A DNA stretch of 64,000 bases, from positions 15,990,501 to 16,054,500 of the forward strand of contig CP141146.1 in the NCBI GenBank assembly GCA_035235625.1, in the 5' to 3' direction. The position numbers were made by a program, and so were the translations under genes. Positions 1 through 26,961 of the stretch are shown piece by piece. The DNA comes from Saururus chinensis. Lineage: Eukaryota; Streptophyta; Magnoliopsida; Piperales; Saururaceae. Each line of letters starts with the position of its first letter. The stretch's first letter is position 1. Below the pieces are notes generated by a model. The model was not told the origin of the DNA and ran no database searches. It saw nothing but the letters and a program-made list of their open reading frames with translations.

Positions 1-1924
1 GACAATGACTAGATCCTCATTTCCCTCTTCTCGGACCCTGTCCCCTTTCGAGACCAGCAAGGGATGGACTTGCTGATGAGGGTATGTTAGACTTGTTTTT
101 GAATTAAAACATAAGGTAGCCCAACTATCTCTTGACACATATTTTGAGCTTTTAAAACTATATGGGTAATGGACCTGAGTCAAAATTGTAACATCCCCGA
201 TTTTCTATAATATTTCTGCAATATTTTGTAATTTTCTGCTCGTATTTTTGATGAAGAAATTTGACGCTTTGGCGTATCCGTATTTGTAATATTCGTGACC
301 GTAAGAATCGGGAGTGGTGTTTAGTCGTAGGTCATAGGCCTCGACTCATTACGGAAATTTTTGCCACCTTTGTCGGCCACCTACATCGGGCTTAGTGCCT
401 CAACTGGTGTTTATGGAACAACTCCACCACTAGATAATATGGCTGCTAAAGCCCTCCTCTATCTCTCTTATGTCCGTGAGTAAGCAACCAAGCCCTCTGC
501 TATGTTGTGAGGCTTCGACAATGCGGAATTGTTTCCGCTGGATGTATTCTGCAGTCTATTTTTAACGTTTTGTGGCCAACAAAGTGTTTTTAGTTGTTGG
601 CTGACCTCCAATTAGTTGGCTCCTATTTTGTGATCGCTCTTGCCATCCCTAGTGACATGACCTTGTGTCCGGATGCCCTAGTGCGCCCAGTCTTATGCTT
701 TGAGTGAAATTAGTCTAACCTTATTGAGATTAATTCCAGCATCTTTGAAAATCCTCGGGACAACAACTCTCTCAGTGCAATGCTTTCTGCTGTCGATTCC
801 GCCATTGACACCACCACCGTCGTGTGCTCGCCATCAAACTCACGTGGATTACAAGGTAGGGGACCTTGACCTCGTAATTTCATGATAGCAAGCTTTGATT
901 GTGTAGTAGCATGCTAGGAATTTGTAACTTAATAATTTGGATGACATATGCTGATTAAATGAGCATATTTTATATGTGAATTCTATGTATTCTAGCAAAG
1001 ACTAAGGGTATGATAGTAAGGAGTTGATTTATTTGTATGTGATTAGAGTATGTGATCAATCTGTGTGGATGATGGGTAAGGGCATGTGCATTGGATGGGA
1101 TGTTTGTCGAATGAATGATTCATGACTTTGATGGGGAAATTTCTGGCTACAAAAGACAAAAGATTGGCGAAGGATGGATTTGATGTGGTTAGGGGATTGG
1201 TTTGGACTAAATAGGTTGGTACATTGGAGTGACGAGCAGGAAGCATAGGGGATGTAAGGATTTAAAGACTTAAGATTCAAAGTACCTTTGGGGGATTGTG
1301 AGGTAGTAAAAGATAACAACATAATTGTACCCACATAATTTACGTAATATGAATTGTAATGAAAGAGTAATGAGTAAGGAATTAGTAAGGGTTTGATAAT
1401 GGGACTTAAGTCTAAAGGATTTCATTTGAGGGGTTCGAGTAAGATGTTTTGGTTTAAGGCAGATGGTGCAAGATGTAATGCGATAAGTATATAATGGTAA
1501 GCGTATGCTGACATGGAATTCGAGTTTGATAAGTAAGGTTATGCAGGGATTTGTAAGACTGTAAGGGTAAGAGTGAATTCTAAGTACAATTGGATGAGTT
1601 AAGTTGAAGTATGTTACCCTTGTGGACCAAGGCTTTAGATCCGATGTGGTTCTAGATTAGTCAACTAAAGAATGTAAGACAGAAGTAACTCCAAACATAA
1701 TTGTACATGCATAAGTTACCTAATATGAACTTGAATGGTAAGTAACCCTAATTTGATAACGTTGTGAGTTTGAGACTGAGGGATTCGACAAATTTAGTTT
1801 CATTTTTGAGCCAGTCAATCAGTAATCGATTGAGCTTCTTTCCTAGTCTAGCCATGGTGTTATCTTGTGGGATTTGGTCTTGGTGTTGTATTTCAGCCTA
1901 GACATTTGATGCTCTATTGAGAGC

Positions 1925-2070
1925 GCTGTAAGTTTTCGCTCTTCATGGGCACTGTATGTATTTCTGCCTATAAATGGCACTATATGTTCTGCCCAAGAGT
2001 GGCATTGTAAGATTCCTGTCCAAGAGTGGCACCGTATGTTTTCCGCCTTTAGTTGGCACTGTATGACCCC
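1925..2070 (+). repeat. Imperfect tandem repeat inside the solo LTR
   Basis: About four to five degenerate units of roughly 35 bp, each centred on a phrase like AAGAGTGGCACTGTATG. Arrays of this kind are common inside long Gypsy LTRs. Confidence 0.6.
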
Positions 2071-2289
2071 AGAGAGTGGGCATTTGCGCGCTCAGGTAAG
2101 TAGTATCATGGACCTGCTATTACCTATTTGATCAGGTGCCATATAAGCACAAGTGTGCCTTGCATTCGGAAAAGTCCATGGCTTCTAGTTTCTCCCTGAA
2201 GGTTAAGGTGATGCCCAAGTGGCATTCCCTTCCTTTCTGACGCTGGAGCTTATTAATTGTAATGAGCTTCAGTTGTTGGTAGTATGTGT

Positions 2290-2600
2290 ACGATAGTAAG
2301 AGTAAGTTATATGTATTCGATTTTAAGTGTAAGTGTAAGATCCAGAGTAAGTATAAGTGTAAGCTTTTAAGGAAGACGTAAGAGTACGTTTATGCGTAAG
2401 AGTAAGATTGTACGAGTAAGGTCGTACAAGTAAGTTCGTACGAATAAGGTCGTATGAGTATGTGTATGTTATAAGTGTAAGTATATTATTGTACAAGTAA
2501 GTTAGTAAGACTCTGATTCAGAGTGTAAGTGTAAGTGTAAGAGTATGCTACAAGAGTAAGTGTAAGTTCATCCAGTACGATTGCATGTATGTAAGATACA
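2290..2600 (+). repeat. GTAAG-rich array inside the solo LTR
   Basis: The plus strand carries about twenty copies of GTAAG, many as GTAAGT, in 300 bp with irregular spacing. GTAAGT is also the plant 5' splice-site consensus. Weaker GTAAG enrichment continues upstream (about 1,360-1,720). A functional meaning is not shown; it may be a degenerate minisatellite. Confidence 0.6.
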
Positions 2601-3977
2601 TTATTGATGCTGCATACACTTCTTGCTTCATGTGTGATTGCTTGAATGCATCTATATATGAACTTGCAAAGTTTATTAATTTATTTCCCCTACTAGGTAT
2701 TTTCCTACTGAGTATGAAAATACTAACCCTATTTTTTTAGCCCCTTCGTTCGGAGGGTTTTGCAGGTCGTTCGATAGCTTTTTGGTCTAGACTATTCTCT
2801 GTGGTCGACTATTTTTTTCTCAACCTGGAGTGCAATGAAATCTTAGTGAGGCTTTGTGGATTTTAGTGCCACGATCTCATGTATAATTTAAAGTGAGAGT
2901 TAAATGTATTATTTTCTCGACTTCTGCATATATGTATGAATTAGAACACATACTGTTGAAGAACTTGTACTCAAAAAGGCTTGGGAGGTGGCAAGTTTTT
3001 ACTTTTATGTTTTCGTTTCTGGTCACGCCTGAGAATGTTAGTTTTGTCGTATGATTAATTAATTTATGAAAATTGTTTTCGCACGTGAATTTTGTTGGTT
3101 CTATTGATTTACATCTGTATTTTAAAACAATTTTTTAGTAGAATTTTAAAGTAAATGTAAGGAAAAACCTCGAGCATGACAAAAATACCCATTAAGTTGT
3201 GATTTTAGTGCTAAATCTAGACTATTGTCTAACCTCTTAATGGAGGGTAAGGATTGTAGAGTTTTTAAAAGCAGTGATCTGGTTTAGTTATAATTACACC
3301 ATTAGTCATCCTAATATGATACCTTAAGGGAGAATTATTCTCAGTCAAGTTCTAAACTAGAAACACATTGTGAGGATTTGCAGAAGATTAGCAGAGGAAA
3401 AACTTCATCAAAGGGGATAAAGCTTTGTTCAAGCTCTAATGGCTACAAGTAAGCCTAGTCCCATTGTATTTTATTTTATTAGGGTCAAGTTCTGGGCCCG
3501 TACTAGGCAACCAAAGTAGTTAGCGCCTCATCCTCCTCAGAGCTCCATGGCCCCTGCACCCTCTCCACCCTCCTGGGTGTTGACAACAATGACTAAGACT
3601 ATCTCCATCTTCGCTTGTTCCAATCAAGTGGAGGAAGGTGACAACTAGATGATGACTAGAACGATGGGAAAAGCATAGTGAGGTGAATAAAGAAGAAGGA
3701 GACTATGTAGATGGCATAGTAGAAAGGCGGGGATGTGGGAGGCATGGTGGGTGTGTGGAAGGGAATGACTAACGAGTGTGAGAGAGCCCCTTGAGCCCTA
3801 CAAAAGAGAGAAGCACCTTTATAGGTGTTATGTTTTTCATGGAAATTTTTAACAGTAAGTTTCAATAGATTTCTTTGACTAGAAGTAGTAGAAGCAGCTG
3901 CCAAATGCTTACTACCGGTTTTCACTGCGACAACTACAAAATTGTAGAAATTTTTTACAAAAAAGCATCAACCAAAT

Positions 3978-4172
3978 GGAAGTTTATTTCATGCTCCACT
4001 TTGAGAATGAGTCTGAGTGTAAAGAAAGTATATGAAGTGTTCATTTTCACAATTGACGGAGTACTTGCAAGAACGTGTTTTAACCTGTGCACTATCAATC
4101 TAAAAAATGAGCATTTCACATGTATTCTTTAACTTTGGCTCATGGTGAGCATGGAGCATGAAAAACGCTTCC
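3978..4172. mobile_element. MITE, candidate Mutator-like family M1, copy 1
   Basis: 195-bp element with inverted ends: GGAAGTTTATTTCATGCTCC on the left and, reversed, GGAAGCGTTTTTCATGCTCC on the right. The flanks CAACCAAAT and TAACCAAAC resemble a decayed 9-bp target duplication, which fits the Mutator superfamily. It is shared with copy B (25,409-25,603), so it predates the segmental duplication. No coding capacity. Confidence 0.75.
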
Positions 4173-4437
4173 TAACCAAACACCTCATATACTTCCTCAT
4201 ATGAGAGTTGGGAAATAAAGCAGCTTTGTATTGTACTTATAGTATAATGTTAAAGCCTCTTGTTTTAGTCATTAAAGTGCATCAAAACAACACCAAAATT
4301 AAAATAGCAGCCAAATTCACCTAGCACAAGCTCAAGTATGCTTTGCCTCTTGTAGTTATAAACATGATAACAAAAATGAGTTTCTTGTTAATAAAATTTT
4401 GCTAAATTTTATTTAAGTCCATTTTATAAGGCAAAAG

Positions 4438-4608
4438 TTGAGGTAAACCAAGGCTCACGTGCTCCTCCATGAGCCCAAGTTTTGTGAACCGTCAAATTTA
4501 GATTTGACGACCTACTTTACTTAGGGCTAAAATACCCCCTAAGTAACGTGCGCCGTTATATCTAATTCTGATGGCCCGTTGTTATGCGTGAGACTAGACT
4601 CACCTCAA
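4438..4608. mobile_element. Small inverted-repeat element (MITE-like), copy A
   Basis: The left end TTGAGGTAAACCAAGGCTCA matches the reversed right end TTGAGGTGAGTCTAGTCTCA at most positions. The same element is present in copy B at 25,931-26,107. No target duplication is convincing, so the superfamily is not assigned. Confidence 0.45.
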
Positions 4609-4824
4609 TGCCCTTCATTTTATACCGGCAATTACCTACAACTTACATGAGTAAGAGAATTGCTCTTAAATTCAAATATCAATTTAATGTAAGAACTGAC
4701 TAAATCCATAAGTTAGTAGTTATAATGAGCTTTTGAGGAGGCTACGGGTGATATCATTTTTTTTATTATTTCCATTCAACTCATTAATAAGATAAGAAAT
4801 AGAAATTAAGCGTTAACCATTATA

Positions 4825-5338
4825 CTCCCTCTATCCTGAAAAGAGTGTGTTGTAGACTAATTTCTATATATGGAAAATCAATGAGAAAAGGGAGAAGAGA
4901 AGGCTTAGTGCTAAAAAGGTTAAATTAAAATAACTAATTAAATTCTTCTTATTTTTTGAATAATAAAATAGGGCAAAGTCCCTACATATTTATAGGCAAT
5001 TCGGAAGTCTAATCCTAATAGACTTTAAAATCATAACGGGCCTTTAATATTAGCCTAAGCCTAATAAGAATAAAATTTTAATCATATTAAAATATTATAA
5101 TTAATAATTAACTCTTAATTTGAATCGATTGAAGGCAGGACCCCGACCCTAGGGCGAGTCATAACAAAGTGTCTTAAAATAAATATTAAAGAAAAGTAAG
5201 GCTCACAAATAAAACATGGAAAAAGTACTAATTTTACTTCTCAAATCGTGTTTACTTAGAACAACTCATTGTATGAAGTGGGCAGATCAGAACTTTTTAT
5301 AGGGTGCAAGTTTTTCCAAATCCGGGATAGAGCGAGAA
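4825..5338. mobile_element. Stowaway-like element of about 0.5 kb, copy A
   Basis: The left end is TA followed by CTCCCTCTATCC; the right end is GGGATAGAGCGAG followed within three bases by TA. These are Stowaway (Tc1/mariner) type ends, although 514 bp is long for a MITE. The copy B counterpart (26,324-26,866) has the TA directly at the right end. It ends about 90 bp from the DUF247 stop codon, so it may supply part of that gene's 3' UTR. Confidence 0.55.
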
Positions 5339-5430
5339 TAAATAGGCATTATAACTGATTTCGATCCTCCCTTGAACGAAGACATTTTTCTGCATAAAAA
5401 TCAACACATTTAGCAAATATAAATAATGGC

Positions 5431-7439
5431 TTAGCTGCTTTTAGGTGGCGGCGGTGATGGTGGTGGGTTTGGAAAACAATAATCTAAGATGGAAATGGAA
5501 GACTGAATCACTGTGAGGCTCAGCAGAAAAAGTGCTGCCAACACAGAGAGGCCAGCCCAAGGATTGCCGAAGTACTCATGCATCAGCTTTGCCCTCCAAA
5601 CATGCAGCCTCTTCTCGCAATACGCATTTATCTGCTCGCACACCTCTGTAAGGTAGTTGTCACGGTTCCTAACGCTTGTTCCGTTGCTTGGCCAGTTGAA
5701 GAGCTCAACAGCCATCTCATCACTGCCCAAAGTGTGCTCAATGATCTTGTGGCTGCGGAGAATCTCCACATCCTCCCGTTTGTCAATGGCAAAGCACATG
5801 AATATTGAGTAGAGAGTGAAGTGATTACCAAGCTCTGGGTAGAATTGTTCCAGGGCACACAGGTTTCGGATGAACGAGTCGGTGGAGTCTTCAATATAGA
5901 AATGGGGAATTTCCAGCACCCCATCTCTGAAGACAATGTCCAGAAGGCCAATCCCCCTTCCTCTTTTGAATTTGATTCCAGCCTCCTTAAGCCTTTCCAC
6001 ACTGGGGAAGGGTCTGAGGTGTTGGGCCTTTGGAGTTCTGCTGGTGGTGGGCAAATTGTCCTCAGTGCTCTTGATTTGCAGAAAAGGGTTCATGATTTTG
6101 GTCAGGAGGCTGGCCTTGTGAGGCAATTGGACGGGGGTGCGCAAGTTTAGATAGAATAGGTGCAGTAAGCGGTACACTTCACCATTAGGCTCTGAAACCA
6201 AATTGTCTTCTAGAATTTCTTTGTTCATTCTCACACATTTTCTGAAGAAATTCATAGCCAGGTTTTGGAGAGAAGGAGAGTTGGACTTGTCAACATATAG
6301 ATCAAAAACCCTTTGGATGAGGAAGAAGGGGAGCTGGTTCTCAAGGAGGAGCAAGTCATAGGCGACACGGTCCACAAGCCAGCTGATTGTGTACACTGGA
6401 TCATCTATTTCGAATGTACCAAAGAACTGTTTGAGGAAGAGCTCAATCAAGAAGCAGCCATCAAGAACCATTATTTCAACGAGTTGGTCAGGCCGCATAC
6501 CGATATTCTCCGAGTAGCGAGCTCTTGCTGGTCCTTCCAAATCTCGGATGACATGGATGCACTTTTGCAGGCTGCGGTTCTTGTTTCGTTGCAAGAAGTC
6601 ACGCAAGTAGCGCCATTTGGTCTCCTGCATGTCCTCTAACTTGTCCTCTTTGTGTTGTTGGTGGTAGTGATGGTGATAGGGTCCAATGGATACAACCCGT
6701 GGCTGGTAGGCATCCGGGCCGGTCCTCAGCAGAATGTGTGGGACACGGTAGATGGTGCCTGGCGGCTTACGGTGGACTTTTTGCAGCCTGCTCTCCATCT
6801 GCTTCACCAGTTCAATCTTGGGTCCTTCAACTCTGATCTCTCTAGTCGCATCTTGCTTCATGAACTTGGATTGATCATCATCCCCCGCCCTTCGGCTGGC
6901 TTCTCCCTGGCACTGAATTTCTACACAATGGCTGATGCAAGGTCCAGCAAATGGGCCAGCCAAAGTTTCACCTGTAACAAAATTAGGAAGGTAGTTTCTA
7001 GCTCGTTCATGGGACATCACACCTGATAATGTTTAGAAAATTATTTGTTTCAGTAAAGAAAGATGAACTTATTTTTTTATGACCTAGTAAGCGTGCAAGC
7101 TTTATAAGCTCTCTATATGCATTCATATTGCCAAAAAAAACAAAGGACGCTTTATTTGTCGATTCAAGTTTGTGTTTCTGCTGTAGTAGAACATTACGCT
7201 TATCATGCTCGAGAATGTCTGCTATCTTCCACAAAGTAAATACCATGCTCACCTCTTTTAGCATGCTTTTTAATATTCATAGGTAACTAAGAATTTATAT
7301 CAAACTTCGTTTCAAGAGCATAAATAAATTGTTTCAAGCAAAGAACAAAGAACATGAATGAATTGGTGGAGCAACCTGCCTCTGCCGCTCTTTCCACATT
7401 TGCTCCAGGTTGCCCTGCTGTTGCCGATCCACCATCCAT
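5431..7439 (-). CDS. DUF247 (UPF0481) family protein, copy A, two exons, 534 residues
   Basis: Plant DUF247 protein; its biochemical function is unknown, and some members are linked to grass self-incompatibility. I model exon 1 at 7376-7439 (64 bp, starts MDGGSATAGQ), a 404-bp GT-AG intron (6972-7375) and exon 2 at 5431-6971. The acceptor is TTTTGTTACAG; joining keeps frame and gives AEAGETLAGP at the junction. Reading straight through upstream of exon 2 lacks a conserved frame: copy B has a 4-bp indel there, as expected for intron. Family marks are VPHILLR near residue 98, VSIGPYHH near 115, LDGCFLIELF, LLLENQLPFF, and a hydrophobic segment at 494-517 that probably anchors the C-terminus in a membrane. 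A proline-rich tail (PPPSPPPP) follows, absent from copy B. No internal stop or frameshift. Histidine-rich stretch near residues 120-127. Confidence 0.9.
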
Positions 7440-8292
7440 AAAGAACAATATAATAAGTTTGCAAGAGCTTACAGCTCTAGGCTATCTCACTCTCAGTGAC
7501 TCAACATCCAATATATTGAGTATACAGGGCCAATAAGAGAATATGTCCAAAACCGAACTTTAAAAAGCAGATACTTGTGTCAAATCATCAAGCCTCAAAC
7601 GTAGCTACATTCTGCCAAGATTTTAAAATTCCTTGCTTGGGAACACTGTTAGCTTTTGAGGCTTTCCTGTTATGAAAAAGTTCTAAAGAATATATTCATT
7701 GTGATTCTTTCCTTAGATTAGAGGATTGCTATTTTTTGCTATTTTTGCATTTGTAATTAAGGTGAGCCTACTCAACCATCTTACTCCTCATGTTACTCCT
7801 ACCCTCCTAACCATCAGACTTGGGTGCAGGGCAGGATAACCAAGTAAAAAAACAAGAGACTTTTGAGAGAATCTCCGGCTTCTCTCTAGAGTTGGTTTGG
7901 ATGTTTAGTGAGATTGAAGAGAATGCAAGTTGTCTATAGGAAAGGGGACGATTGTCGACTCATGCTCGACTTATTGTTTAAATGTTAGGTTTTTGCCAAA
8001 TTGAAGTCTTTTTCTATTAAAACTCTTTCTATATTAAGATAGCCGACATAGAACTCTATAAATAAGGTGCTATTCTATCAATTCTAAGAGTGAGACTGCG
8101 CGTAGAGAAGAAGTACTAAACCTTATAATTTAATATTTTGCTTCTATTCATCATCTCAGTCTCAAGTTGCCTGGTAAGCTTCTCTACTCATTTAGATTGT
8201 TTTAAAGTTGTTTTTTTAAACACCTTTGTTTTAATTTCAATTTAGTAGTATTTGCATTTGAATTTTAGTGCATGTAGGCGGGTAATCAAGTA
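7440..8292. other. 5' flank of DUF247 copy A, no coding sequence
   Basis: Likely promoter side of the minus-strand DUF247 gene. Read on the minus strand, it has an ATTGG (CCAAT-type) element and AT-rich TATA-like sequence within 120 bp of the start codon. On the plus strand, CTATAAATA near 8,056 and a donor-like CTGGTAAGC near 8,170 look like an LTR or a 5' exon, but no open frame follows. The same layout recurs in copy B. Confidence 0.45.
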
Positions 8293-8491
8293 CTCCCTCC
8301 GTCCTATATTAATTGCTAAATTTACAAAAATAATAATTTTTATTGAATGGTGAAACCCACATAAGAGAAGAAAAAAAAAGCTTATGATACTCTTTTTCAA
8401 GTACCCAACCACTTATATTTAATAAAATGGAGTTATTAATATGGAACACACTTTTTTTGCAAATGGAGCTATTAATTTAAGACGGAGGCAG
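8293..8491. mobile_element. Stowaway MITE, copy A
   Basis: 199 bp, flanked by TA on both sides, with ends CTCCCTCCGTCC and GACGGAGGCAG, which are the classic Stowaway termini. It is AT-rich and non-coding. Copy B carries the same insertion (30,295-30,459) with an internal deletion, so it predates the duplication. Confidence 0.85.
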
Positions 8492-8493
8492 TA

Positions 8494-10943
8494 TGTGGTT
8501 AAGCAGGTATGTGAGCTACAAACGAGCAAGACGTGTGCCAAATGAGTCCATTGGTCGACCCGACAGGCAGCCTTGGTTGCCAAGCTGAGAAGATAGTACA
8601 TGCCTTTATTTGATTTGTAATCCCACTATTTGATTTATTTAGTTGATAATTGGCCAAGGATGGGAAGGAAATCTAGATAAGTTGGAAAGCTAACCAACTT
8701 AAGGAGGCGCCAACCCCTCCTTCTCTCCTCCCCATGTCTCATTCTCTCACCCTCTGTCCCCTCTCTCTCCCATTTCATTCCCCTCTCCCCTCTTCTCTTC
8801 TCTTGCTTCTTCTTTCCCATCTCTTCTCCTTTCTCCTGTTTTGAAGATTCCACCAGTGAAAAACCCAAGGAAGCCTTAGACCCTTGATTCACCATCCTTG
8901 GAACATAAACTTAGAACTCTTTTTAACTTGAATGTCAATGTAGAGGACTGATTTATGCGTTAATTAGGATTCGTCTCAAGGTGAGGGAAAGTAATTTTTA
9001 TTCAATTTCATATGATTTTGGTTTTGATTTTTATTTGGCGCCTAAGCAGATTTTGATGCAAACTAGGGTTTTGGAAGAGAAAGTTTTTTGCATCAAGTTT
9101 GGGAATTTAGATATCTTTGAAGCAATTAGTGATCCACACCGCTTGTTATTTATACTTACATTGGTTTTGATATTGTGTTTTAATGACATTCAATTCTAGG
9201 AATTTGAATGTTTGTCAAAAGATTTGATTTTTATGCATGCTTCATGTTGATCCATGATTGCTTACCTATAGGTAAAATTTTCCTATAATAATCTTGCTGA
9301 TTCAAGGTTAAATATTTCATGTTGGATTGTGTTAGATCATGTTCTACTCTCTCTTCTTTGCTGAAAAGTTCTTTCTAGAATTGGTTAGGAATTTTCTTTT
9401 CTTCAACTTAATTTTTGTTTTCTCTGTGCACCAATTTTCATTGGATGGGTTCATACGCTTCTGGATAGAATTTTGATTTGAAAATTCTATGAACCTTACT
9501 AGACTTCCTAAATACATTATTATAAAAAAATTATGTGTTTTATACATGTATTTCTCCTTGAAAATACTTTAGTTTTCCAAAAACCAAGTTTCTTTTCATT
9601 GGTACTATATCGGGTTCTCAACATTGTTTCAGGCATTTACTATTGTTTGTTTTACCCAAGAAAATTACTGAAGATTTTTTGTTGTGTCTACTATTAGCTT
9701 GTACTTTTAAGGAATTTTACTAATCCGTTTCTATTATAAAATTTTCCATAAGCCGCATTAGTTAGAATTTACAATTCTTTAAATTTTTACTTGAACTTAC
9801 TTTCTGTATTAAACACGTGTTTTATTGCTTCCAAAATTTGTGAGTTTGATTTTATGAGTTGTCTATTCAATGTAAAAAGTCCATATCATTTTGAGTTGTT
9901 CTTTGTTGAGTTGTAATTATTGAATTCCAACTGCACATGAAATCTTACATTGTGTAGTAATTTAAAAAATTCCTAAATATTTACTTTTTCTAGTCAGCTT
10001 GATCTACCAATTTAATTCCTTGTCATGGACTCTTTCATCTTGATGCTGTCAAAATTACGTTAGCATCTGAGTCTCTAGATATTATTTTTATTTTTTTGAA
10101 TCAGCAGTAGGGTCAAATTTTGCATTACGCAATGTGGTGCTGATCAGGTTATTTGACTTGCACAATTGATTTGGTTTCAATGAATGTTTTTTCATGGTCT
10201 AAATATGTATTGTCATGGGTTTCTAAGTGGGATTCGTGTGTGTGTGAGTAATCTTATTGGGCATATGATCACAAGTGGTTGTTAATTTCTTTTGCATTGA
10301 TTTTCCACCATATGGATTTGTACATGTAGGTGCTTTGGAGTTTACACATGCTTAGCATTGGGAGCTATGAGGACATTGGTGAATAAAGACTTGTTAGTGA
10401 GGGACAAGGGTAGATGCATTAGTAGGAAATTTGAACTAATGTTATTTTCATATTACTGGAATAATTCTGTCTAAATGGTAGACTTTTGGTACTTGTAGTG
10501 ACTATAATACTAGATTTAGTTATACCTAAATTGTTATTTTTAATTGACTAATGTCCTTATGTGGGCTACACTTCGCTTGTCGCGGTCTTGGCTAGGGGTC
10601 CATTGGCCAGGGTCGTAACACTTTTGATCTAATTTTGATTATTGTAAAGCTTGCTTTTCTACGTAAATAAGAGCATAAGTGATACATTGTGCCGTTATCA
10701 CATAACTAACTTTGTCGTAAGCATAACTTTATCATACTCTTCTTCTTACTCTGAAAAATCACATTAGAAACAATATTGATCTAACACGTTCTTTTTTTTT
10801 CAAACAAATGAAATATATCACAACGCATGACATATTCATAATCAATCATTATTTGTCTCAAGTCTCAAGCAAATACATCACTAAACAATTTCTTTCTTTG
10901 CATATATCTTTGTCTTTTTCTCATAGTTTATACTACCACTCAG
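8494..10943. other. Noncoding, probably old LTR-derived sequence, copy A
   Basis: No gene seen. A CT-rich stretch (8,700-8,840) is followed by AT-rich sequence. It closes near 10,560-10,620 with a GC-richer phrase ending GGGTCGTAACA, like the end of a Gypsy LTR. I could not fix the left end or a target duplication. It is shared with copy B, where the solo LTR at 32,783 splits it. Confidence 0.35.
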
Positions 10944-11291
10944 TGGCTATTAGGATACATAATTGAGAAGATTTTGTGTTGATTCCGTCTATTTTTGTAT
11001 TTAATGGTAAGATTCAACGGAATGAAAATTTCTTCTCAAATGACGATTCAAACTTATTTATGGCCAAATTGTCAAATCTCATCACAAGGAGATTCAATTG
11101 ATTTTGTCAATTCCACAAAATGGCTCATTATTGACTTTTTCACCTCATTAGGAATTTGACACATACTCATTCCATTTCATCATTGGAATCAAACAATTTA
11201 ATTACCAAACCTAATTCTGATTCTAATCAATTCTGCTATAATTTATTTAGTTGGAATATATTCCAATTCCATTCCATTTAATAGCCAAACA
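10944..11291. mobile_element. Possible inverted-repeat element, copy A
   Basis: The left phrase TGGCTATTAGGATA and the right phrase TTTAATAGCCAAACA are partly inverted (TTGGCTATTA core). The interior is AT-rich and noncoding. Copy B has the same structure at about 36,420-36,755. The match is short, so this is tentative. Confidence 0.3.
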
Positions 11292-11314
11292 ATCTCATAT
11301 TCTTAGGTGGATGT

Positions 11315-12501
11315 TGTAAGAACATATGAGTCATATGTCAAGGTTATTGGTTGATTTCTTTGTCAAAATTATGTCTAGAAACCTTGTCTATGTATTGAGT
11401 TTTAAAATCTGATTTGAGGTTGTGGTTGAGTCAAAGTTAGAATTGACATACTTGAAAAATAGGAGCAGAATATTTTTATGGATCAAGATAGAAGACTGAT
11501 GAACGTTGAAGGTTTTTTAAGTTTATTCAGATCACATTTGCATACCAAAATTACTTATACAAGTTTCAGAAGTGATTTGAGGGGTTTTAGGGTAAAAATG
11601 GTAAAATAATAAAAATATAGGTAGAACGATCGATCAGGCACTTGATTTCACCTATGTAAAATGAAGCCAAGAGTTATTGATCGATTGCTCTCATAAATCG
11701 ATCGATCGTTTGAAGTATCATGTACAAAATAAATAGTGAATGGTCGATTGTTGTTCGGAACGATATATTGCTTTAAGGAAAAGTTACCTTAATTAAGCCA
11801 TTTTGATTTTTATTTATTTCCTTATTCAAGTCAAAAACCTAAACCAACTTAGAGAGCTATATAGGGTTAAGAAATCATGAAATTTAAGAGAAAAAAACCT
11901 AGAAGAGATTAGAGGAAAATGGTTTATACTTTTTGCACATTGTTTTCCAAAGAGGATTCACATGAACCTTTGAGTCGAAGATGAATGGTGAATTCATGAA
12001 GCTATTCCACAACTAAAAGGAGATTTCACATAGAAATTGTAATGGAGTTGCAGCATATCTTTGATGGGAGATTGAAGATTTCTAAGGAGGCCAAAGTCAA
12101 TACGACAAGAGGTGCATGTTGAAGGCTAAAAGAAGACAAAGACAAAGCAGGAAGAAGAAGAAAGTTTCAAGTACTTGTGGAAGAAGACTTGAAGGCCAAC
12201 AACAACAAAAATTTGTGGAGATGTAAACAAAAGGAGTTGTGTTAGAGTTAAAGCAAAAGTTGGTGATTTGCTTGTGTTAATGTAAACTGTCTTGTTTGCT
12301 AGTAGTACATTGATTTGGTTCCAATGTGTAACTATCATAGTTTTAGACCCGAGTTTGGGTTTTCCAAGTTAAATTGTTGTGTTCATGTGCAAATTAAATG
12401 CTTATGGTTTGAACGATTGATACAATGGGAGTGAGATTTGAGAGAATTTTCGTTTGATTCTGCTACGTATAAATTTTTTGCGTAAAAGAGGTTAGAACTC
12501 A
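11315..12501 (+). mobile_element. Copia-type LTR, copy A (fossil)
   Basis: About 1.19 kb, beginning TGTAAGAACATATGAG and ending GGTTAGAACTCA. It resembles the LTRs of the fossil at 50,935-56,867 in its start, its GATCGAT-rich upstream part (11,625-11,770), a TATA-like phrase near 11,860 and its end. It is present in both duplicates and therefore older than the duplication. No internal coding region is attached on either side. Confidence 0.6.
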
Positions 12502-12524
12502 CAGTCATTATCTTCATAGATAAT

Positions 12525-13426
12525 TGGGATTTTTAAGATTTTTTATTATATTTTATATTTTAAAAATAAAAAAATTTATTGCTCGTGAAATTGTCATTAA
12601 TATATTTATTTAAATGTTTTTATTAATTTTAAAATATAATTTATAATTAAAAAGAGAGAGTTAAGAGAGGAAGAGAGAGAGTGAAGAAAGAGAGGGAAGA
12701 GAGAGATAAAGGAGGGAGAGAAGGAGAGGAGAGAGAGAGAGGGTAGAGTGGGATAAGTGTATTTTTTAATTATATCTTATATTTTAAAAATAAAATAAAT
12801 AAATTTAATGGCGACGCCTAAGACAAAGTGTCACTCTCCCTCTCTACCCTCCTATCTCTATCTCCTCCCTCTCTCTACCCTCTCTATCTCCTCCCTCCTT
12901 CCCTCTACCCACTCTTCTATCTCTCCTCTCTCTCTACATACCCTCTCTCCTCTCTCTATCTCCTCCCTCTCTCTATATCTCTCTCCTCCCTCTTTCTTCT
13001 CTCTATCTCTTCCCTCTCTCTCTACATACCATCTCTCCTCTCTCTATCTCCTCCCTCTATCTCTACCATTTCTCTCCTCTTTCTCTCTCTCCTCTCTCTC
13101 TTTCTATCTCTTCCCCTTTTTTAGAAGCTTCCAGTGAAACCATCACAAAAAGGCCAGTGCGGGAGAAATTTTGCCCACACGAGGAAATTTTGCATGTGCC
13201 TGGAAATTCCCCGCACGGGCAAAATTCACCCTCCTTCTATATCACACCCCCCCCGACAACTTCCTCTACCTCAGCAACCAGCCCCCTCCAACCATCTGCT
13301 CCCCCCCTCTCTCCCCGGGTCCCCCTTCGAGGGGAAGGAGGGGAGGACCCAGGGAGAGAGGGGGAAGCCGGAATCCCGCCCCCTCCTCCATCCCGCTTCC
13401 ACCCTCTCTCCCTGGTCCCCTCCCCC
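12525..13426. repeat. CT-rich tract and GC-rich island left of the CACTA element
   Basis: 12,640-12,760 is GA-rich and 12,830-13,120 is nearly pure CT-rich. 13,120-13,235 repeats phrases also found at 16,330-16,385 (GAAATTTTGCCC type). 13,235-13,426 is GC-rich. At 12,808 there is a lone GGCGACGCC, like the array motif. All open frames here are low complexity and I reject them as genes. This is probably the interior of an outer CACTA-type element whose left end I cannot find. Confidence 0.5.
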
Positions 13427-13972
13427 CACTACAACAAAATGTAGTATTAGCAACGCATTTATTAGCAACGCTTAGCTAAGCATCGCTAAAAACAATTATT
13501 TGCGACGTATCCAAAGCGTCGCAAAAAAAAAAAAAACTATTAGCGACGCATTTCTGCTAGCGACCCTTTATTCTAAGTGTCGCTAATAGTGCCCCTATTT
13601 GCGACGCTTGAAACAACCGTCGCTAAAAGGCATATATTTTAAATAAAAAAAAAGAAAAATATTATGACTATTAGCGACGCTTTAGTAAGTGTCGCCAATA
13701 GCTTACGCAATAGTGACTCTTATACAGAAGCGTCGCTAATAAGGCTACTATTAGCGACGCTTCAGTGAAGCGTCGCTAATAGTTATGAATTAAAAATAAA
13801 AATTTTCAACTATTAGCAACGCTTTTATATAAGCGTCGCCAATACCATTTCTAATAGCAACATTTTTTATTAAGCGCCGTTAATAACTTTATTAATTAAT
13901 TTTATTTAATAAATAAATTTTAAATAATTCTTTTTTATTTTTTAAAAAATAATTTTAAATAATAAAAATTTT

Positions 13973-14805
13973 TAAAATTTGAAATTAGAGGAGAGAGAGA
14001 GGGGAGGGAAGAGAAAGACATAGAGAGGAGAGGGAAGAGAGAGAGAGAGGGGAGAGAAGAGAGAGAGAGAGAGAGAGGAGGGAAGAGAGAGAGGAGAGCG
14101 AAGAGAGACCAAGGATAGGGAAGAGAGAGAAGAATTTTATTTTAATTTTTTTAAAATTTTTATTAATTTTTAAAATAAAAAAATAAAATGAATATAAAAT
14201 ACTAATAGCAATGTATATATGTATACGTTGCTATTAATACATGTAGTCGCGACGTATAATAGTATATGTTGCGATTAGTATTTTTATTTAATTCTTTTTT
14301 ATTTTTAAAAATTAATTTTAAATAATAAAAAAATTAAAATTTGAAATTAGAGGAGAGAGAGGGGAGAGAAGAGAGAGAGAGGGGAGGGAAGAGAAAGAGA
14401 GAGGAGAGGGAAGAGAGAGAGAGGAGGGGAGGGAAGAGAGAGAGAGGAGGGGATAGAAGAGAGAGAGAGAGAGGAGGGAAGAGAGAGAGAGAGAGGAGAG
14501 GAAAGAGAGAGGAGAATTTTATTTTAATTTTTTAAAAATTTTTATTAATTTTTAAAATAAAAAAATAAAATGAATATAAAATACTAATAGCGACGTATAT
14601 ATGTATACGTCACTATTAGTACATGTAGTCACGATGTATAAGAGTATACATCGCGATTAGTATTTTTATTTAATTCTTTTTATTTTTAAAAATAAATTTT
14701 AAATATTAAAAAAATTAAAATTTGAAATTAGAGGAGAGAGAGGGGAGGGAAGAGAAAGAGAGAGAGAGAGTGGGGAGGGAGAGAGAGAGAGAGAGGAGAG
14801 GGGAA

Positions 14806-14853
<48 letters not shown>

Positions 14854-16055
14854 AGGGGAGGGAAGAGAGAGAAATTTTATTTTGATTTTTTTTAAAAAAT
14901 TTAATTTTTTTAATTTTTAAAATAAAAAAATAAAAAAAAATAAAATACTAATAGCGACGTATAGTGCTATACGTCGCTATTAGTACATGAATTAGTGACT
15001 TATACAAGTATACGTCGCTAATACATGTACTAATAGCAACGTATATAACTTTACGTCGCGATTAGTATTTTTATTTAATTCTTTTTTAAAAAAAATTAAT
15101 TTTAAATAATAAAAATTTTTAAAATTTGAAATTAGAGGAGAGAGAGGAGAGGGGAAGGAAGAGAGAGAGAGAGAAGAGAGGGGAGGGAAGAGAGAGAAAT
15201 TTTATTTTGATTTTTTAAAAAATATTATTAATTTTTTTTATTTTTAAAATAAAAAATTAAAATAAATTACTATTAGTGACGTATAGTGCTATACATCGCT
15301 ATTAGTACATGTATTAACGACGTATACAAGTATACGTTACTAATACATGTACAAGTATCGCTATTAGTATATTACTATACGTCGCTATTAGTATTTTTAT
15401 TTAATTCTTTTTTTATTTTTAAAAATTAATTTTAAATAAAAAAATTTTAAAATTTGAAATTAAAGGAGATAGAGAGGGAGAGGGAAGAGAGCGAGAGAGA
15501 GAGAGGAGAGAGAAAGGGTGGAGAGAGGGGAGGGGAGAGAGAGGGCCCGGGGGAGAGAGAGAGGGGAGGGAAGAGAGAGAAGAATTTTATTTTGATTTTG
15601 TTAAAAATTTTATTAATTGTTTAAAATTTTAAAATAAAAAAAATAAAATTAAAATAAAATACTAATTGCGACGTATAAAATTAAAAGAAATAACTATACA
15701 TCGTTATTAGTATTTTTATTTAATTCTTTTTTATTTCTAAAATTAATTTTAAATAATAAAAAATAAAAAAATTAAAATTAGAGGAGAGTAAGAGGGGAGG
15801 GAAGAGAGAAGAGGATAGGGAAGAGAGGGAGAGAGGAGAGGGAGGAGGGGGAAGAGAGAGAGGGAGGAGAGAGAGGAAGGAGAGAGGGAGGAAGGAGAGA
15901 GAGGAGAGGGAAGAGAGGGAGAGATGTAGGAGAGAGAGGGAGGAGAGAGAGCGAGAGATGGAGGAGAGAGAGGGGGAGGAAGGAGAGAGAGAGAGAAGAG
16001 AGAGGGAGGAAAGAGGAGAAGAGAGAGAGAGGAGGGAGGAGAGAGAGGAAAAGGT
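13973..16055 (+). repeat. Six tandem units of 320-400 bp with GA tracts and GCGACGTA palindromes
   Basis: Each unit opens with TTGAAATTAGAGGAGAGAG or a close variant (near 13,981, 14,343, 14,724, 15,128, 15,456 and 15,772). It continues with a 60-150 bp purine-only GA tract, then an AT-rich part, then a palindrome such as GCGACGTATATATGTATACG. The last unit has an enlarged GA tract. Period lengths by position are about 362, 381, 404, 328 and 316. Noncoding. Confidence 0.85.
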
Positions 16056-18328: not shown

Positions 18329-18334
18329 ACAAAG

Positions 18335-18940
18335 GATGAATAGCAAGGGGACAAGAGACATCCATGCCTTAAACCACACCCATGAATGAAGAAGCCATAG
18401 TTCACCCCATTGACGAGAATACTAAAACTTGGGGTACACATGCATTCATAGATCAAAGAAATCCAAATATTGTTGAACCCCAAATGCTTTAGAACATGAA
18501 GCAAAAAATCTCATTTCACTTTTTCGTAATCCTTCCTCAAATCAACTTTATCTCCTATGAGTGCTTTTATTATGAAAGTTTCTTACCAATTCATGCTCTA
18601 GTAAAATGTTCTTACCTACCATTCTCTCTTTAATAAAAGCCGACTAGTGTTGACTAATAACAAATAAGAGCCTATTAGCCATATAAATAAAGTTGCCAAG
18701 AGATTTAGGCAAAATTCCTCAAAATTGACTGTATTGTTTTTTGGGTACCAAGGTGAGGAAGGTATGATTTACCGCCTTTAGAAGTCGACCGTGTTGGAAA
18801 AATTCCTTAATTGTTGCAATGAGGTTAGGGCTTACCAAATCCAAGAATGCGACAAAGAATTCCCTCTTAAAACCATTAGGACCCAACACATCATTGTTGG
18901 GGCAAGACGAGATAATTTCCTTAAAATGATTTTAGCTCAC
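18335..18940 (-). mobile_element. L1-type LINE reverse transcriptase remnant
   Basis: Minus-strand translation in shifting frames gives phrases of plant L1 reverse transcriptase: EFFQHGRLLKAVNHTFLTLV, then NILLEHELVRNFH, WISLIYECMCTPSFSILVNG and GLRHGCLLSP. In the intact family these run up to just before the YADD catalytic motif. The remnant has at least two frame breaks and in-frame stops. It stops dead where the CACTA terminus begins at 18,328, so the catalytic part is missing. Upstream LINE domains are not recognisable. Confidence 0.8.
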
Positions 18941-19248
18941 CGTTGCTTTTTGTGTGTAAAATGATAAAAATATCCTTCAATGTAATTATGACAAAAAATG
19001 ATGGGTGAAATGTCTTTTCACATTGTTTTTTTAAAAAATGACTTTATTCAAATCAGGAGGAGAGTTCTCCTCAGGAGGAGAGTTCTTGAAGAAATTAAAT
19101 TTTGGTATAATTGGGTTTGAATTGACCCAAAAAGTGATTTTAAATAGGAAAAATCATTTCAAATTAAAACGTGTTTAAGCCCTCAAAGTGCTTTCTCACG
19201 TATGGAAATTGGCCCTTAAACCCTTGTATACCCTTCTCCCATTTCACT

Positions 19249-19469
19249 AGTGTTTTAAAACCTGGACCGGCTTGGTTGGTTAGACCGGGTTCAATCGAAC
19301 CCGGTTGTCAAACCAGGCTAGTTCATTACTTTTTCAGCGTTGAGTTGACCCAGCCGATTGAACCGCCAACCCGCTAACTAGGTCGGACCGGTCCTGAGAG
19401 ATGGAAAAAAAATCTGGTTGAAAGAGGATTCAAACTCATGTTATGGTGAAGCCCATTATGATAATTTTG

Positions 19470-19527
<58 letters not shown>

Positions 19528-19784
19528 TATTTAAATGTTCATCTACTTTATAACATATGATAAATTAAAGTTGTTGGCCGCGGGATTCGCAGGCCATGGT
19601 TATAACAACATACGCACTCTACCCAGTGAGTTATGATGATCTTGTATATATATTTATACTTAATATTTTATTTAATATAATATATAAGAAAATGGGACAA
19701 CCCAAGTTGACCTACGATTGAACCTAGTTAACCCAGCCCGGCAACCAATCCGGGTCAGTGGCTGGGCCGATTTTTAAAACACTG
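19249..19784. mobile_element. Mutator-like MITE, 536 bp, with 9-bp target duplication
   Basis: Inverted ends AGTGTTTTAAAA and TTTTAAAACACTG, flanked on each side by a perfect CATTTCACT (19,240-19,248 and 19,785-19,793). A nine-base duplication points to the Mutator superfamily, although related-looking ends are also found in hAT MITEs. Both arms carry GC-rich phrases around GGGTTCAATCG. The centre holds a long AT microsatellite. Noncoding. Confidence 0.82.
19470..19525. repeat. AT dinucleotide microsatellite
   Basis: About 28 uninterrupted TA repeats inside the MITE at 19,249-19,784. Confidence 0.95.
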
Positions 19785-20790
19785 CATTTCACTGGAGTCG
19801 ATCCCCCTTCCTTCACTGGTGCTTAACTTTATACTCGCCAGTCAGGATACCTCATCCTTGGCACTCAGACAAAATTTTGTAAGCAATAACAACAGTGGTG
19901 AAGAAGACATGAGGGGAAGATAGAGAAAAGTGGGTGGAAGAGACCTTGAGCTTCGAGGAGGTGGAGAAGCTGGTTAATTACAAAGAAACAAGTTCCCGAC
20001 TGGGTAGAGGGACATGCTGGATTGCGGCTTGTTGGTTTTCTTGAAACAAAGAAGAACAAAGGTGGGTTACATGAGTGGATGGGATGGAAGAGATGGAAGA
20101 GGTTGAGCTTTGATACGAATGAGTTTCTAAACTTGACACTAGTTGCTGCCATGTCAACAAGCTTGGACTCCTGGGTGAATCTCCCTTTCCTTCCTTCCAC
20201 CATGGCCTATTTCTCCACTCGTTAGTTGGGTTGATGAAAGGGGCAGAGAGTGGAGCTTGAGGAAAGAGGTAACCTATGTCTAGAAATGACAAAGGCAAAA
20301 ATCTTAAACAGATTTCTGCCAAATCTCCTATGTGGCTTGTAGGCTATAGCCCCGCTTTTTGCCAAATTGGTCGTCTTTTGGATTTATGTCAAAGTAGTCA
20401 TCCAAATAGGATTTGGAGAAAGTCATGTGATTTTCGCCAAAACTTGGCCTTAAAGTGTAACGGACCCTAAGGGGTTGTTTGGATACAAATTATTGGTTGT
20501 AGCAAATTTTGATTTACCTTAATCTAATTAGTTAAATTCATCGATGAATTGCTTTTATGTTTGGTAATATATATTTGGGGAATATGATTTATAAGAGTTT
20601 TGTATATGAATCATATTTGGTAAACCCATAAGGAAATAAGATTCATGGTTATAAATTATGCATACACCCTTTTAAAAGAAAATGTATTTCAACATAAAGT
20701 GTATGAAACCAATATGAGATTAATAAGTTATAAATTACATGGTGTAGTTTGCATCACGTAAATTGTGTTGCAATTTGCAACAAGCCTGGT

Positions 20791-21063
20791 GTTAGTATAG
20801 AGGGATCCACCTAATCAATACAGATCCACTAAATTTTAGCCTTTGATTCACGTATTGGGTTCCCATGGGACTAGTGGACATTGGGCTTCTATAAAAAAGC
20901 CTACTCGTGAGGAGCCAAGCTAGATCAGAATTCCACTTCAATCACTGAGGCTAAATTAAAGTTGAAATTTTAATTATTGAGACACTTAAAGTTCTATCCA
21001 CTTGCATTTTAATCTTCCCGTCGCTAATTCATAGCTTACCTCGCCACTCTTGTGTCTGAATTA
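20791..21063 (+). mobile_element. Possible short LTR with adjacent primer-binding-like site (fossil)
   Basis: Begins TGTTAGTATAGAGGG, has a TATA-like CTATAAAAAAG near 20,890, and ends in ATTACA. It is followed within a few bases by GGTATCAAGGTC, close to the initiator-methionine tRNA site of plant Copia and TRIM elements (TGGTATCAGAGC). No second LTR seen. Old and fragmentary. Confidence 0.4.
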
Positions 21064-23034
21064 CAACAAGGTATCAAGGTCGGTTTCATTCATGGAAGCC
21101 GCAAACGAACTATGAATTGAATACCGCAAGTATTGAAACCAAAAGGCAAAAGGTCCATGGCTCCATTCAATATTTGGATTGAGGATTAGGAAGATCTTAG
21201 AGCAGCAACAACCCATGAAATGGACAAAAAACGTGGACCAACGCCTAAGAAATGAACCCACGTACCCACCGAATGCTTCAACGTGAGTGCAGTTTGCATC
21301 ACCTTTTATTACCATGGCATGAAAGACAGGAACTTCTCCCTGCTTTCCTACCTCAACCTCCACATTAACGCCCACTTCATTGCAAGAGGAAATCCGCCAT
21401 GAAGAGAGACTTTACATGGGTCCATATCTTCCTCTTGAACATTCCCAAGGCAAGACAAAATTTTCATGGTCCATATCTTACTTTTGAACTAGCTATCCAC
21501 AAGTGAAGCATAGCATTCGTTTATAAGCAGGTAAGGCTTACGCTTTGTTCAACATTTTCCTGGTTAATGAGAAACTTTGTTTCCTTTTTACAGAAACTGA
21601 AACATCAATGACCGAGGAGGCAGTGCATGGTACAGGCGTCCAGCAATATGTGCTTGAGCGTAATTGGCAGATACTTGGAAAAAGAAAAGGGCTAGGAAGA
21701 TTACACATATGTAAAAATTCGTTTTAGCCCACTGCATTATCTACTACCTTATCGGTTTTTACTTTTGTAGCCCCTTACATCTTGCAGATGCTTGTTTTTT
21801 TAGCATGTAGGAAAAACTGGCGGATTGGCATATGCCAAACACTCTAGTAATCAATTATATGTATATATTACTAGACAAAGATACTCGTACCCAGCGACAA
21901 CATGAATAAAACATCATACAAAAGAACCAGATTATCAGGAATGAACTAAGGATCAATGTGTCATACTTTACTTACTGAAATTAGAGGAATACATGCTAAT
22001 AAAAAACGAATATATGTTTTGTTGCAATATAATTTGAGAAACTTATTGGAAAGCATCACTTTCAGAAACCGTTCCAGTTGGACTATATATAATGCAGACA
22101 CTTGATTGATATACATTAAATAAAATAAAGAAAAGAAAAGAAATCCGATCAAAAGAAATAAGTAGAAATCCAAACAATAAATTAAAACTACTGGGCCGAC
22201 TAATAAAGTAACAATCCTAAAACAGACCAGCTAAAAGCATTAAAATGTATTTAAGAAAAGAACTAGCTAACTATATTCTTCACATCAAGGCAACACCTCA
22301 TAGAACGTCACTCGGTATGCCATATAAAGACCACCCAAAATAAATGTTCATTGAAATACAATAAGCTAAAGGATGTCATACATAATATGAGCTACAAACT
22401 GTTCATTGACAAGAATATCACATTCACGCCTTATCTCAGCTATCTTTGGTTGGAAAGGAACCAATGGTGCAGTTCATGAAAAAGAAAGAATTTTTCTAGC
22501 CAGAGTCCTGCTAAAAGTAGAATAACAAAATTTAAAAAAAAAACATATATGAGAAGACACGGCTCACCAGACTCCAGCAAAAGGGATAGGCGAATATTCA
22601 AGTCGAAACCAGTCTTCTTCTCATTGGGCTACCAAATCTGAAGCCAATTCACGATTCACAACAAGTGGATGATTGACCGGGAGAAGTAGTACTGATCACC
22701 CAAAATACTTATACACACTGAAGAAGTAGGATCAATTAAAACACCAAGAAGAGGAACTTTGAGACAAAATTGGCAGTAGGGCAGAGACGACAGGAAACCT
22801 CAACTGATCGTCTCAATCAGATCGCTAATCAACCAAATCGAGATAGTGCCTCCTCGAAGCGGGCGGCCGGTAGGTGAGGGGATAGGAAATCATACCCTAG
22901 ATTACCATCTCATATACTTCTCCTAATCACCATATGAGAGGAGGGTCAAGAGCTTGTAAGGGTATATTTATAAAAAAAATAGTTACAGTAGATTACCACT
23001 ACCAATTTTTCAAGAAATCTCATCCAGAGGAGAT

Positions 23035-23420
23035 TATTTGGGAAAGTGAAAATTAACAAAAAAAACTTCATGAATCTAACAATTCATCGTGAATTTGATA
23101 TATTTAAGAATTTTATATTTAATGTAATTTAGAGAATTTATGCTTAGGGGCTATTTGGATACAGATTATTGGTTGTAACAAATCTCAATTTACCTTAATC
23201 CGATTAGTTAAATTCATCGATGAATCGCTTTTATATTTAGGAATGTAAATTATGTAAATCTAATTTACAAGAGATTTGTAAATGAATTATGTGAATCTCC
23301 TCACAAGGAGATTACTTGGGAAAATGAACTAAAATCTTGATGAATCTAACAATTCATTGTGAATTTGATATATTTATGAATTTTACATCCAAACGTAATT
23401 TAGAGGATTTATGCTTAATC
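23035..23420. repeat. Near-tandem duplication around a MITE-like sequence
   Basis: A phrase of about 85 bp (ACAATTCATCGTGAATTTG ... TTTATGCTTA) occurs at about 23,075-23,147 and again at about 23,345-23,419. The second copy lies directly after a sequence starting GGGGCTATTTGGATAC at 23,148, whose relative lies at 20,471. GGGG-TTTGG ends next to TTA/TAA are typical of PIF/Harbinger MITEs, but the right terminus is not certain. Confidence 0.4.
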
Positions 23421-25408
23421 TTAAGAGAATCATGCTGATAAATCTTAAGGAGCATTTTGGATGAAAAGCCAAACCGTTCTAAAAGCCTTTTATTTGATTC
23501 AAGTGGTTTTAGAGATCCCCAACTCATCACCATGGTGGCCGCTGTAGACATTGCCCTCCTCATCATAGCCCACTTACGCCTTCTCTCCCTCTACCTACTC
23601 CCCCCGATCCTTTGCCTCTAGTGCTGCTGTCAACGATGCCTCCACTACTGCACATTCTACTTTGCCTTTTCCCTCTCCTCTCCCTTCCACCCCAAGTACA
23701 CACACCTCCGCTCACCACCCTTTCCTCTCCCCCACAGCCTCCACGACTCCGCCATGAAAACCCTCCACCCTCTCTGTCTTCTCCCTGCCGTTCAAGCTAT
23801 GTGAGAATCAAACTGACCAGAACGAAAGAGGATCCAAATCATCCCCAAATCTCGATCAACAACCAACACCCATAAAAGAATCTTTTATTTTTTACCATCG
23901 GCTAAATGAAAAGCTAGAAAATGCCCAATCTTTCTTTCCTTAGAAGATCATTAGAGAATGGCCCAAAAAATAAATAATAAAACCAATCCACCAATGCGAA
24001 ATGATCAACAATGGAAGTCACAAATGAGGTGGAGGGGCCTACTATGACAGCCCGAAAAATACAAAAAAATTAGTAGAATCGGAGGACATAATAACGATTG
24101 ATCTTGGAATCCTATGAATGAGGAAATGGGTGGCAAGAGTTGGTGGGCAAGCTAAGAGGGACTTCTTCATGGCGGAGTCAATAGAGGTGGAGAGATAACA
24201 ATTATAGCTGGCTGGAGTCAAGTGGTGGGAGCCGCCCCGCCACCCCTCAAAAGCTCCTTCTGAAGAGGCTTCCTTGATTCTTCTACTTCTTCTTCTTTCG
24301 CTACTAGACTACTGCCCTAGCACTTGGTTTGATTCCCCCCCCCCCTGTTTTCCGATGGTGGAGCCGGCATCCTCCCCATTCGTACTCCTCATGGCTACAT
24401 GCATCCACCCCAACCTCGACAATGACCGGGTCCTCACTTCCCTCTTCTTGGACCCCGTTCCCTTTTGAGACTGGCAAGGGATGGACTTGCTGACGAGGGT
24501 CTGTTGGGCTTGTTTTTTAATTAAAACATAAAGTAGCCCAACTATCTCAATTGACACATATTTTGAGCTTTTAAAACTAAATGGGTAATGGGCCTGAGTC
24601 AAAATACCCATTAAGTTGTGATTTTAGTAGTAAATCTAGATCGTTGTCTAACCTTTGAATTTTAGTGGGTAAGGATTCTAGAGTTTTTAACAGCAATGTT
24701 CTGGTTTAGTTATAAATACTCCATTAATCATCCTAATATGATACCTTAGGGGAGAATTATTCCCAGTCAAGTTCTAAACTAGAAACACATTGTGAGGATT
24801 TACAAAAGATTAGCAGAGGAAAAGCTTCATCATAGGAGATCAAGCTTTGTTCAAGCTCTAATGGCTACAGGTAAGCCTAGTCCCATAGTGTTTTATTTTA
24901 TCAAGGTCAAGTTCCAGGCCTGAACTAGGCAACCAAAGTCGTTAGCGCCCCGTTCTCCTCCAAGCTCCATGGCCCCTTCACCCTCTCCACCCTCCCAAGT
25001 GATGACAACAATGACTAAGACTATCTCCATCTTCCCCTATTCCAATCAAGTGGAAGAAGGTGATAACTAGATGATGACCAGAACGGAGGGAAAAGCATAG
25101 TGAGGTGAACAAAGAAGAAGGAGACTATGTAGATGGCATAGTAGATAGGCGGGGATGTGGGAGGTATGGTGGGAGTAGAAGGTGTGTGGAAGGGAATGAC
25201 TAATGAGTGTGAGAGAGGCCCTTGAGCCCTACAAAAGAGAGAAGCACCTTGATAGGTGTTCTATTTTTCATGGAAATTTTTAACAGTAAGTTTCAATAAA
25301 TTTCTTCAACTATAAGTAGTAGAAGCGGCTGCCAAATGCTTACTAGGGGTTTTCACTTCAACAACTACAAAATTGTAGAAAATGTTTACAAAAAAGTATC
25401 AACCAAAT

Positions 25409-25603
25409 GGAAGTTTATTTCATGCTCCACTCTGACAATGAGTCTGAGTGTAAAAAACGTGTATGAAGTGTTCATTTTCACAATTGACGGAGTACTCGCA
25501 CTAAGGTGTATTAACATGTGCACTATCAATCTAAAAATTGAATACTTCACATGTATTCTTTAACTTTGGCTCATGGTGAGTATGGAGCATGAAAAACGCT
25601 TCC
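25409..25603. mobile_element. MITE, family M1, copy 2 (in duplication copy B)
   Basis: Counterpart of 3978-4172. Here the flanks are CAACCAAAT and CAACCAAAC, eight of nine bases alike. This is the best evidence that the family makes 9-bp target duplications and belongs to the Mutator superfamily. Ends GGAAG...CTTCC are intact. Confidence 0.8.
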
Positions 25604-25930
25604 CAACCAAACACCTCATATACTTCCTCATATGAGAGTTGGGAAATAAAGAGGCTTTGTATTGTACTTATAGTATAATGTTAAAGCCTCTTGTTTTAAT
25701 CATTAAAGCGCATCCAAACAACACCAAAATTAAAATAGCAGCCAAATTCACCTAGCACAAGCTCAAGTATGATTTCCTTCTTGTAGTTGGAATGGGTGGA
25801 CAATTTTAGATGGTTCGAGTATGCCACAACTCTTGATTAGCAATATTTTTATAAACAGGATAATGAAAATATGTTTCTATTCAATAAAAATTTGCTAAAT
25901 TTTAGTTAAGTCCATTTTATAAGGCAAAAG

Positions 25931-26107
25931 TTGAGGTAAACCAAGGCTCACGTGCTGCTGCATGAGCCCAAATTTTGTGAACCGTCAAATTTAGATTTGA
26001 CGGCCTACTTTACTCAGAGCTAAAATACCCCCTAAGTAACATGGGTCATCGGATCTAAATCCGATGGCATGAGCCCGTTGTTATGCATGAGACCAGACTT
26101 ACCTCAA
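25931..26107. mobile_element. Small inverted-repeat element (MITE-like), copy B
   Basis: Counterpart of 4438-4608. Ends are TTGAGGTAAACCAAGG and, reversed, TTGAGGTAAGTCTGGT. It contains a second internal palindrome (ATCGGATCTAAATCCGAT). Confidence 0.45.
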
Positions 26108-26323
26108 TGACCCTCATTTTATACTGGCAATTACTTACAACTTACACGAGTAAGATAATTGCTCTAAAATTCAAATATCAATTTAATGTAAGAACTGACT
26201 AAATCCATATCTCAGTAGTTATAATGAGCTTTTGAGGAGGCTACAAGTGATATCATTTTTATTATTATTTCCATTGAACTCATTAATAAGATAAGAAATA
26301 GAAATTAAGCGTTAACCATTATA

Positions 26324-26866: not shown

Positions 26867-26961
26867 TATAAATAGGCATTATAACTAATTTCGATCCTCC
26901 GTTGAACAAAGGTATTTTTCTGCAATAAAAATCAACACACTTGGCAAATATAACCAATGAC

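Follow-up and report, generated by a model that had tools for sequence, protein, structure and literature searches.

The window analysed here is a 64,000-nucleotide stretch of the Saururus chinensis genome (contig CP141146.1, positions 15,990,501 to 16,054,500), and it carries two DUF247 genes in direct orientation, about 21.5 kb apart, inside a larger duplication. Both genes match Pfam PF03140 over its full length (profile positions 1-400 of 401), and both frames are uninterrupted by stops between the start codon that they share (6861 in copy A, 28377 in copy B) and their ends. The open frame of copy A extends beyond this codon to another ATG at 7017. The genes and the duplicated units are as follows:

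5431-6861, minus strand: DUF247 coding sequence, copy A, taken from the start codon shared with copy B (PF03140, E = 5e-107)
26962-28377, minus strand: DUF247 coding sequence, copy B, 471 amino acids (PF03140, E = 6.4e-109)
1-12524, unstranded: duplicated unit A, the part inside the window; matches begin about 3585 bases to the left of the window
18329-37990, unstranded: duplicated unit B, in direct orientation, matching unit A in several pieces

Each unit contains sequence that the other lacks: 187-3181 in unit A has no counterpart in copy B and for the most part matches a dispersed repeat, and 32781-36075 in unit B is absent from copy A and likewise matches a dispersed repeat, within which a 57-bp tandem repeat is present in 3.8 copies (35189-35404). 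Another dispersed repeat of about 200 bp lies inside the duplicated unit at 8291-8494, with many copies elsewhere in the genome at 84-90% identity, and between the units, at 12834-16049, there are tandem repeats rich in GA/CT, one of which (13987-14989) has 2.7 copies of a 382-bp unit. Farther along the window we observed a second pair of direct repeats with about 71% identity (50933-52275 and 55510-56868) and an open frame matching Pfam ribosomal protein S6 (47906-48229, E = 1.4e-7), perhaps one exon of a gene.

The two units have diverged appreciably. Between 3182 and 8706 they differ at 351/5441 ungapped columns (6.45%), and over five aligned blocks between 3182 and 12524 at 639/9233 sites (6.92%), a count confined to the duplication from 3182 rightwards. 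Against this background a preliminary description had reported that part of the two genes is identical base for base with differences at both ends, and this is exactly what we find: a match of 351 bp bounded by a C/T mismatch at 6420/27936 and a G/A mismatch at 6772/28288. The tract lies within a single open coding frame, with no sign of an intron inside it, and a DNA search of the genome with the tract itself gave 2 candidates, the two copies in the window. When differences are tolerated, a scan extends the low-divergence zone on both sides, to an interval of 521 bp with 3 differences (at 6420, 6772 and 6806), all of them transitions. These could have arisen by mutation after a tract of about 520 bp was formed, or they may mark the edges of a shorter one. 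The intervals are:

6421-6771, minus strand: identical tract, copy A (DUF247), codons 31-147 from the shared start codon; exact match to 27937-28287
27937-28287, minus strand: identical tract, copy B (DUF247), codons 31-147; exact match to 6421-6771
6372-6892, unstranded: best-scoring low-divergence interval, copy A
27888-28408, unstranded: its counterpart in copy B, from the same scan

About 20 differences had been expected in a stretch of this length, and the rates of the exon, the block and the unit give about 20-24. The next-longest identical run in the aligned duplication is 94 bp. When the differences of the five blocks were placed at random, 0/20,000 placements reached 351 bp and the longest run was 223 bp; permutation over the duplication reached it in 0/10,000 trials (longest 206 bp), and permutation within the exon alone, with 57 differences over 1416 sites, in 0/100,000 (longest 315 bp). 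The scan likelihood ratio for 6372-6892 was 27.7, compared with a null maximum of 17.5 in 5000 permutations. Identity between the paralogues is thus far above that of the flanks, as is expected of a conversion tract, and the tract's divergence likewise falls far below that of the exon and flanks, in agreement with the gene conversion originally proposed. The second-lowest divergence among the aligned blocks, 7 differences over 340 bp, occurs at 7208-7547, upstream of the DUF247 gene. It is borderline (P = 0.046) and may reflect an older conversion or the conservation of a promoter or leader.

The tract is unchanged at silent and replacement sites alike, with 0/75 synonymous and 0/276 nonsynonymous sites changed, compared with 19/214 and 36/758, respectively, in the part of the exon 3′ of the tract. 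Within the exon, the longest run of codons without a synonymous change has P = 0.017, the longest without a nonsynonymous change P = 0.0005, and the longest without any change was matched in 0/20,000 permutations; the probability of no change in 75 synonymous sites ranges from 0.001 to 0.013 with the assumed rate, uncorrected. Divergence at silent sites is therefore low, as in a conversion tract, and gives moderate support when taken alone. Because silent sites alone are not decisive, the question turns on whether protein constraint could have emptied this region of amino-acid changes. We also considered GC-biased conversion, as GC3 is 0.624 in the tract and about 0.58 in the rest of the gene, and dropped it since the excess is present in 11/11 sequences scored and so is no independent mark of conversion.

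We addressed constraint with other members of the family in the same genome. A protein search gave 106 matches; apart from the pair itself, the closest listed are two loci on C10, with 44% and 42% identity. Of the 30 loci listed, 11 were used, namely the two genes of the window, the C10 pair, one locus on C1 and six from a C3 cluster. These gave 16 control pairs of roughly similar youth (1.5-8.5% different), one being the C10 pair and the other 15 all combinations of the six C3 genes; the 15 are not independent of one another. Two control paralogues, L005 on C10 and L012 on C3, have one in-frame stop each in the matched stretch and may be pseudogenes; in-frame stops also occur in several other matches of the search. 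In the control pairs, the region homologous to the tract diverges at 0.59-1.83 times the rate of the rest of the gene, with a median of about 1.2, and it is nominally slower in 1/16 (L007/L009, ratio 0.59, P = 0.039). The window pair shows 0/351 differences in the tract and 57/966 in the rest (P = 1.3e-8); even the lowest control ratio predicts 12.3 differences in the tract, and the probability of seeing none is then 4.5e-6. At silent sites, the tract region of the window genes differs from that of nine other family members at a proportion of 0.66-0.80. The region is thus free to change in the DUF247 family, and its identity is specific to the window pair. The test for an over-long identical run covered 17 pairs in all, and the window pair alone stood at 0/2000 permutations. 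In the C10 pair a run of 170 bp lies in the C-terminal part, whose pN is only 0.012 (P = 0.0115 for the longest run, 0.0085 in the scan), and the other 15 pairs gave P of at least 0.10.

These comparisons bear on two earlier statements. It had been suggested that orthologues be checked for a generally low rate in this block, and the 16 paralogue pairs, used in place of orthologues, show no such general low rate. The statement that protein constraint alone does not suffice is supported: the absence of synonymous change and the 15/16 control pairs that are not significantly slower are in its favour, with the caution that the silent-site signal on which it had leaned is moderate by itself. With all sites used and family-wide constraint excluded, the signal is decisive.

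Next to the tract lies a block in which the two proteins differ frequently, as had been noted from the sequence. Its coordinates, obtained by arithmetic from the codon alignment, are:

6022-6420, minus strand: fast-changing block, copy A (copy B residues 148-280)
27538-27936, minus strand: fast-changing block, copy B

Of the nonsynonymous differences after the tract, 22/37 fall in copy B residues 148-280; in another alignment, which sets an indel near the 3′ end at a different position, the total is 36. In the window pair, pN is 0.071 and pS 0.068 in residues 148-280, compared with 0.035 and 0.110 in residues 281-471, a modest excess of amino-acid change in the block (P = 0.026). The same contrast appears in the C10 pair (pN 0.061 vs 0.012), and 12 of the 15 C3 pairs have a higher pN in 148-280 than in the later part, against 2 with a lower and 1 with an equal value, the margin being small in many cases. 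We read the fast block as mainly a property of the family; being at least partly so, it need not be linked to conversion. A more elaborate possibility is that conversion recurs but is limited by domain, such that the N-terminal third is homogenised while selection for distinct recognition removes conversions in residues 148-280. We consider this unlikely; if true, the DUF247 pair would represent a shared scaffold with two specificities.

Taken together, the evidence points to a recent, non-reciprocal interlocus gene conversion, in which about 350-520 bp passed between direct repeats separated by 21.5 kb. We assign it a probability of about 0.9; the probable conversion of the preliminary description is borne out by an identity that is both specific to this pair and statistically exceptional inside a diverged tandem duplicate. 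Among the alternatives, an assembly artefact in which one copy was pasted or polished into the other appears highly unlikely. It would need to have changed about 20 bases in one sharp-edged block while leaving about 7% divergence on both sides; there is no N in the window or its 30-kb flank, and the indels and separate insertions elsewhere indicate that the copies were resolved. We rate still lower the idea that the region stays unchanged in both copies, with no exchange, through purifying selection that acts on the protein or an overlapping nucleotide element. The moderate depletion of silent sites is compatible with it, as are the nominally slower region in L007/L009 and a comparison of four old lineages (six comparisons), in which the tract protein is slightly more conserved, with a mean identity of 0.405 vs 0.352 and 0.383. 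Against it stand the 15/16 control pairs in which the region is not significantly slower, the median ratio above one, and the extensive silent divergence from the nine other family members. An overlapping nucleotide element is further disfavoured in that no Rfam family reached its gathering score anywhere in the window. An RNA element was rejected on this result and on the absence of any tRNA in the window.

A double crossover between misaligned copies would leave the same end product as repair-type conversion, and direct repeats at a distance of 21.5 kb can misalign. As is generally understood, however, one non-crossover event is far likelier than a pair of crossovers within about 520 bp, which makes this route very improbable. 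Chance, whether as a stretch that escaped mutation or as a locally low mutation rate, we regard as negligible. Some variation in rate does exist, as the borderline interval at 7208-7547 illustrates, but the longest permuted runs, over the duplication and over the exon, all fall short of the tract, and the control pairs show no general low local rate.

On this reading, the history of the locus begins with a direct tandem duplication that gave rise to the two DUF247 genes about 21.5 kb apart, after which the copies came to differ by about 7%. One copy may then, much later, have suffered a DNA break and been repaired with the other as template. Such a repair, with no crossover, would have replaced about 350-520 bp, reaching from the vicinity of the start codon to codon 147. 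Non-crossover repair between paralogues typically leaves a tract of this kind, a few hundred bases long and lying within direct repeats. The pair-specific tract of identity is directly observed, and it is from this that we infer repair, in a single event. The timing is likewise indirect: with 0/351 differences, the 95% upper bound on tract divergence is 0.85%, compared with 6.9% for the unit, so that, assuming equal rates, the event would date from roughly the final eighth of the period after duplication.

Outgroup comparison divides the changes outside the tract about evenly between the copies. Among 35 amino-acid differences, 20 are ambiguous, while 8 appear derived in B and 7 in A; among 45 nucleotide differences at which the two C10 genes agree, B appears derived at 17 and A at 14, and the remaining 14 look derived in neither copy. 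As polarisation is about even outside the tract, and inside it there is nothing to polarise, no direction of conversion follows. Searches for a third close copy found, beyond the pair, only a short dispersed repeat among the best 40 of 4589 candidates for the DNA of 5431-8706, and only dispersed-repeat matches among the best 40 of 4003 candidates for 8706-12524.

Gene conversion as a process is well known, and this case is ordinary in kind. A literature search combining ‘DUF247’ and ‘gene conversion’ gave no paper with both among those searched, and this instance in a DUF247 pair is probably unreported in that literature. The case is of value for its clean tract, the relative age of which is bounded, in a plant gene family that includes the grass self-incompatibility genes; where conversion is ignored, such genes can be misdated or read as having a conserved domain.

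The comparisons that follow refer to the portions of the cited papers available to us. Interlocus (ectopic) conversion between plant paralogues is documented for the Arabidopsis RPP8 NLR genes (PMC6771003), and like our case it is a non-crossover transfer between paralogues in a plant genome, with some RPP8 copies in tandem. RPP8 differs in that population samples revealed frequent exchange, whereas we describe one isolated tract in one genome and in another gene family. For duplicates under both conversion and selection, selection can maintain differences between copies despite conversion (PMC3924837). The adjoining of a homogenised block and a block where the copies’ proteins differ resembles that theory, although the rapid change in the latter block is common to most control pairs. 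Two hypervariable segments are described in the DUF247 proteins of grass self-incompatibility (PMC9623065), and the window pair shares with SDUF247/ZDUF247 (PMC9623065, PMC13033167) the DUF247 family, an uninterrupted coding frame and the arrangement of two neighbouring DUF247 genes, a likeness from which we claim no membership in that system. Finally, the tandem DUF247 blocks of valley oak (PMC9018854), in the examined text of which the term ‘gene conversion’ is absent, differ from the single pair described here and resemble it in being tandemly duplicated DUF247 genes in a plant genome.
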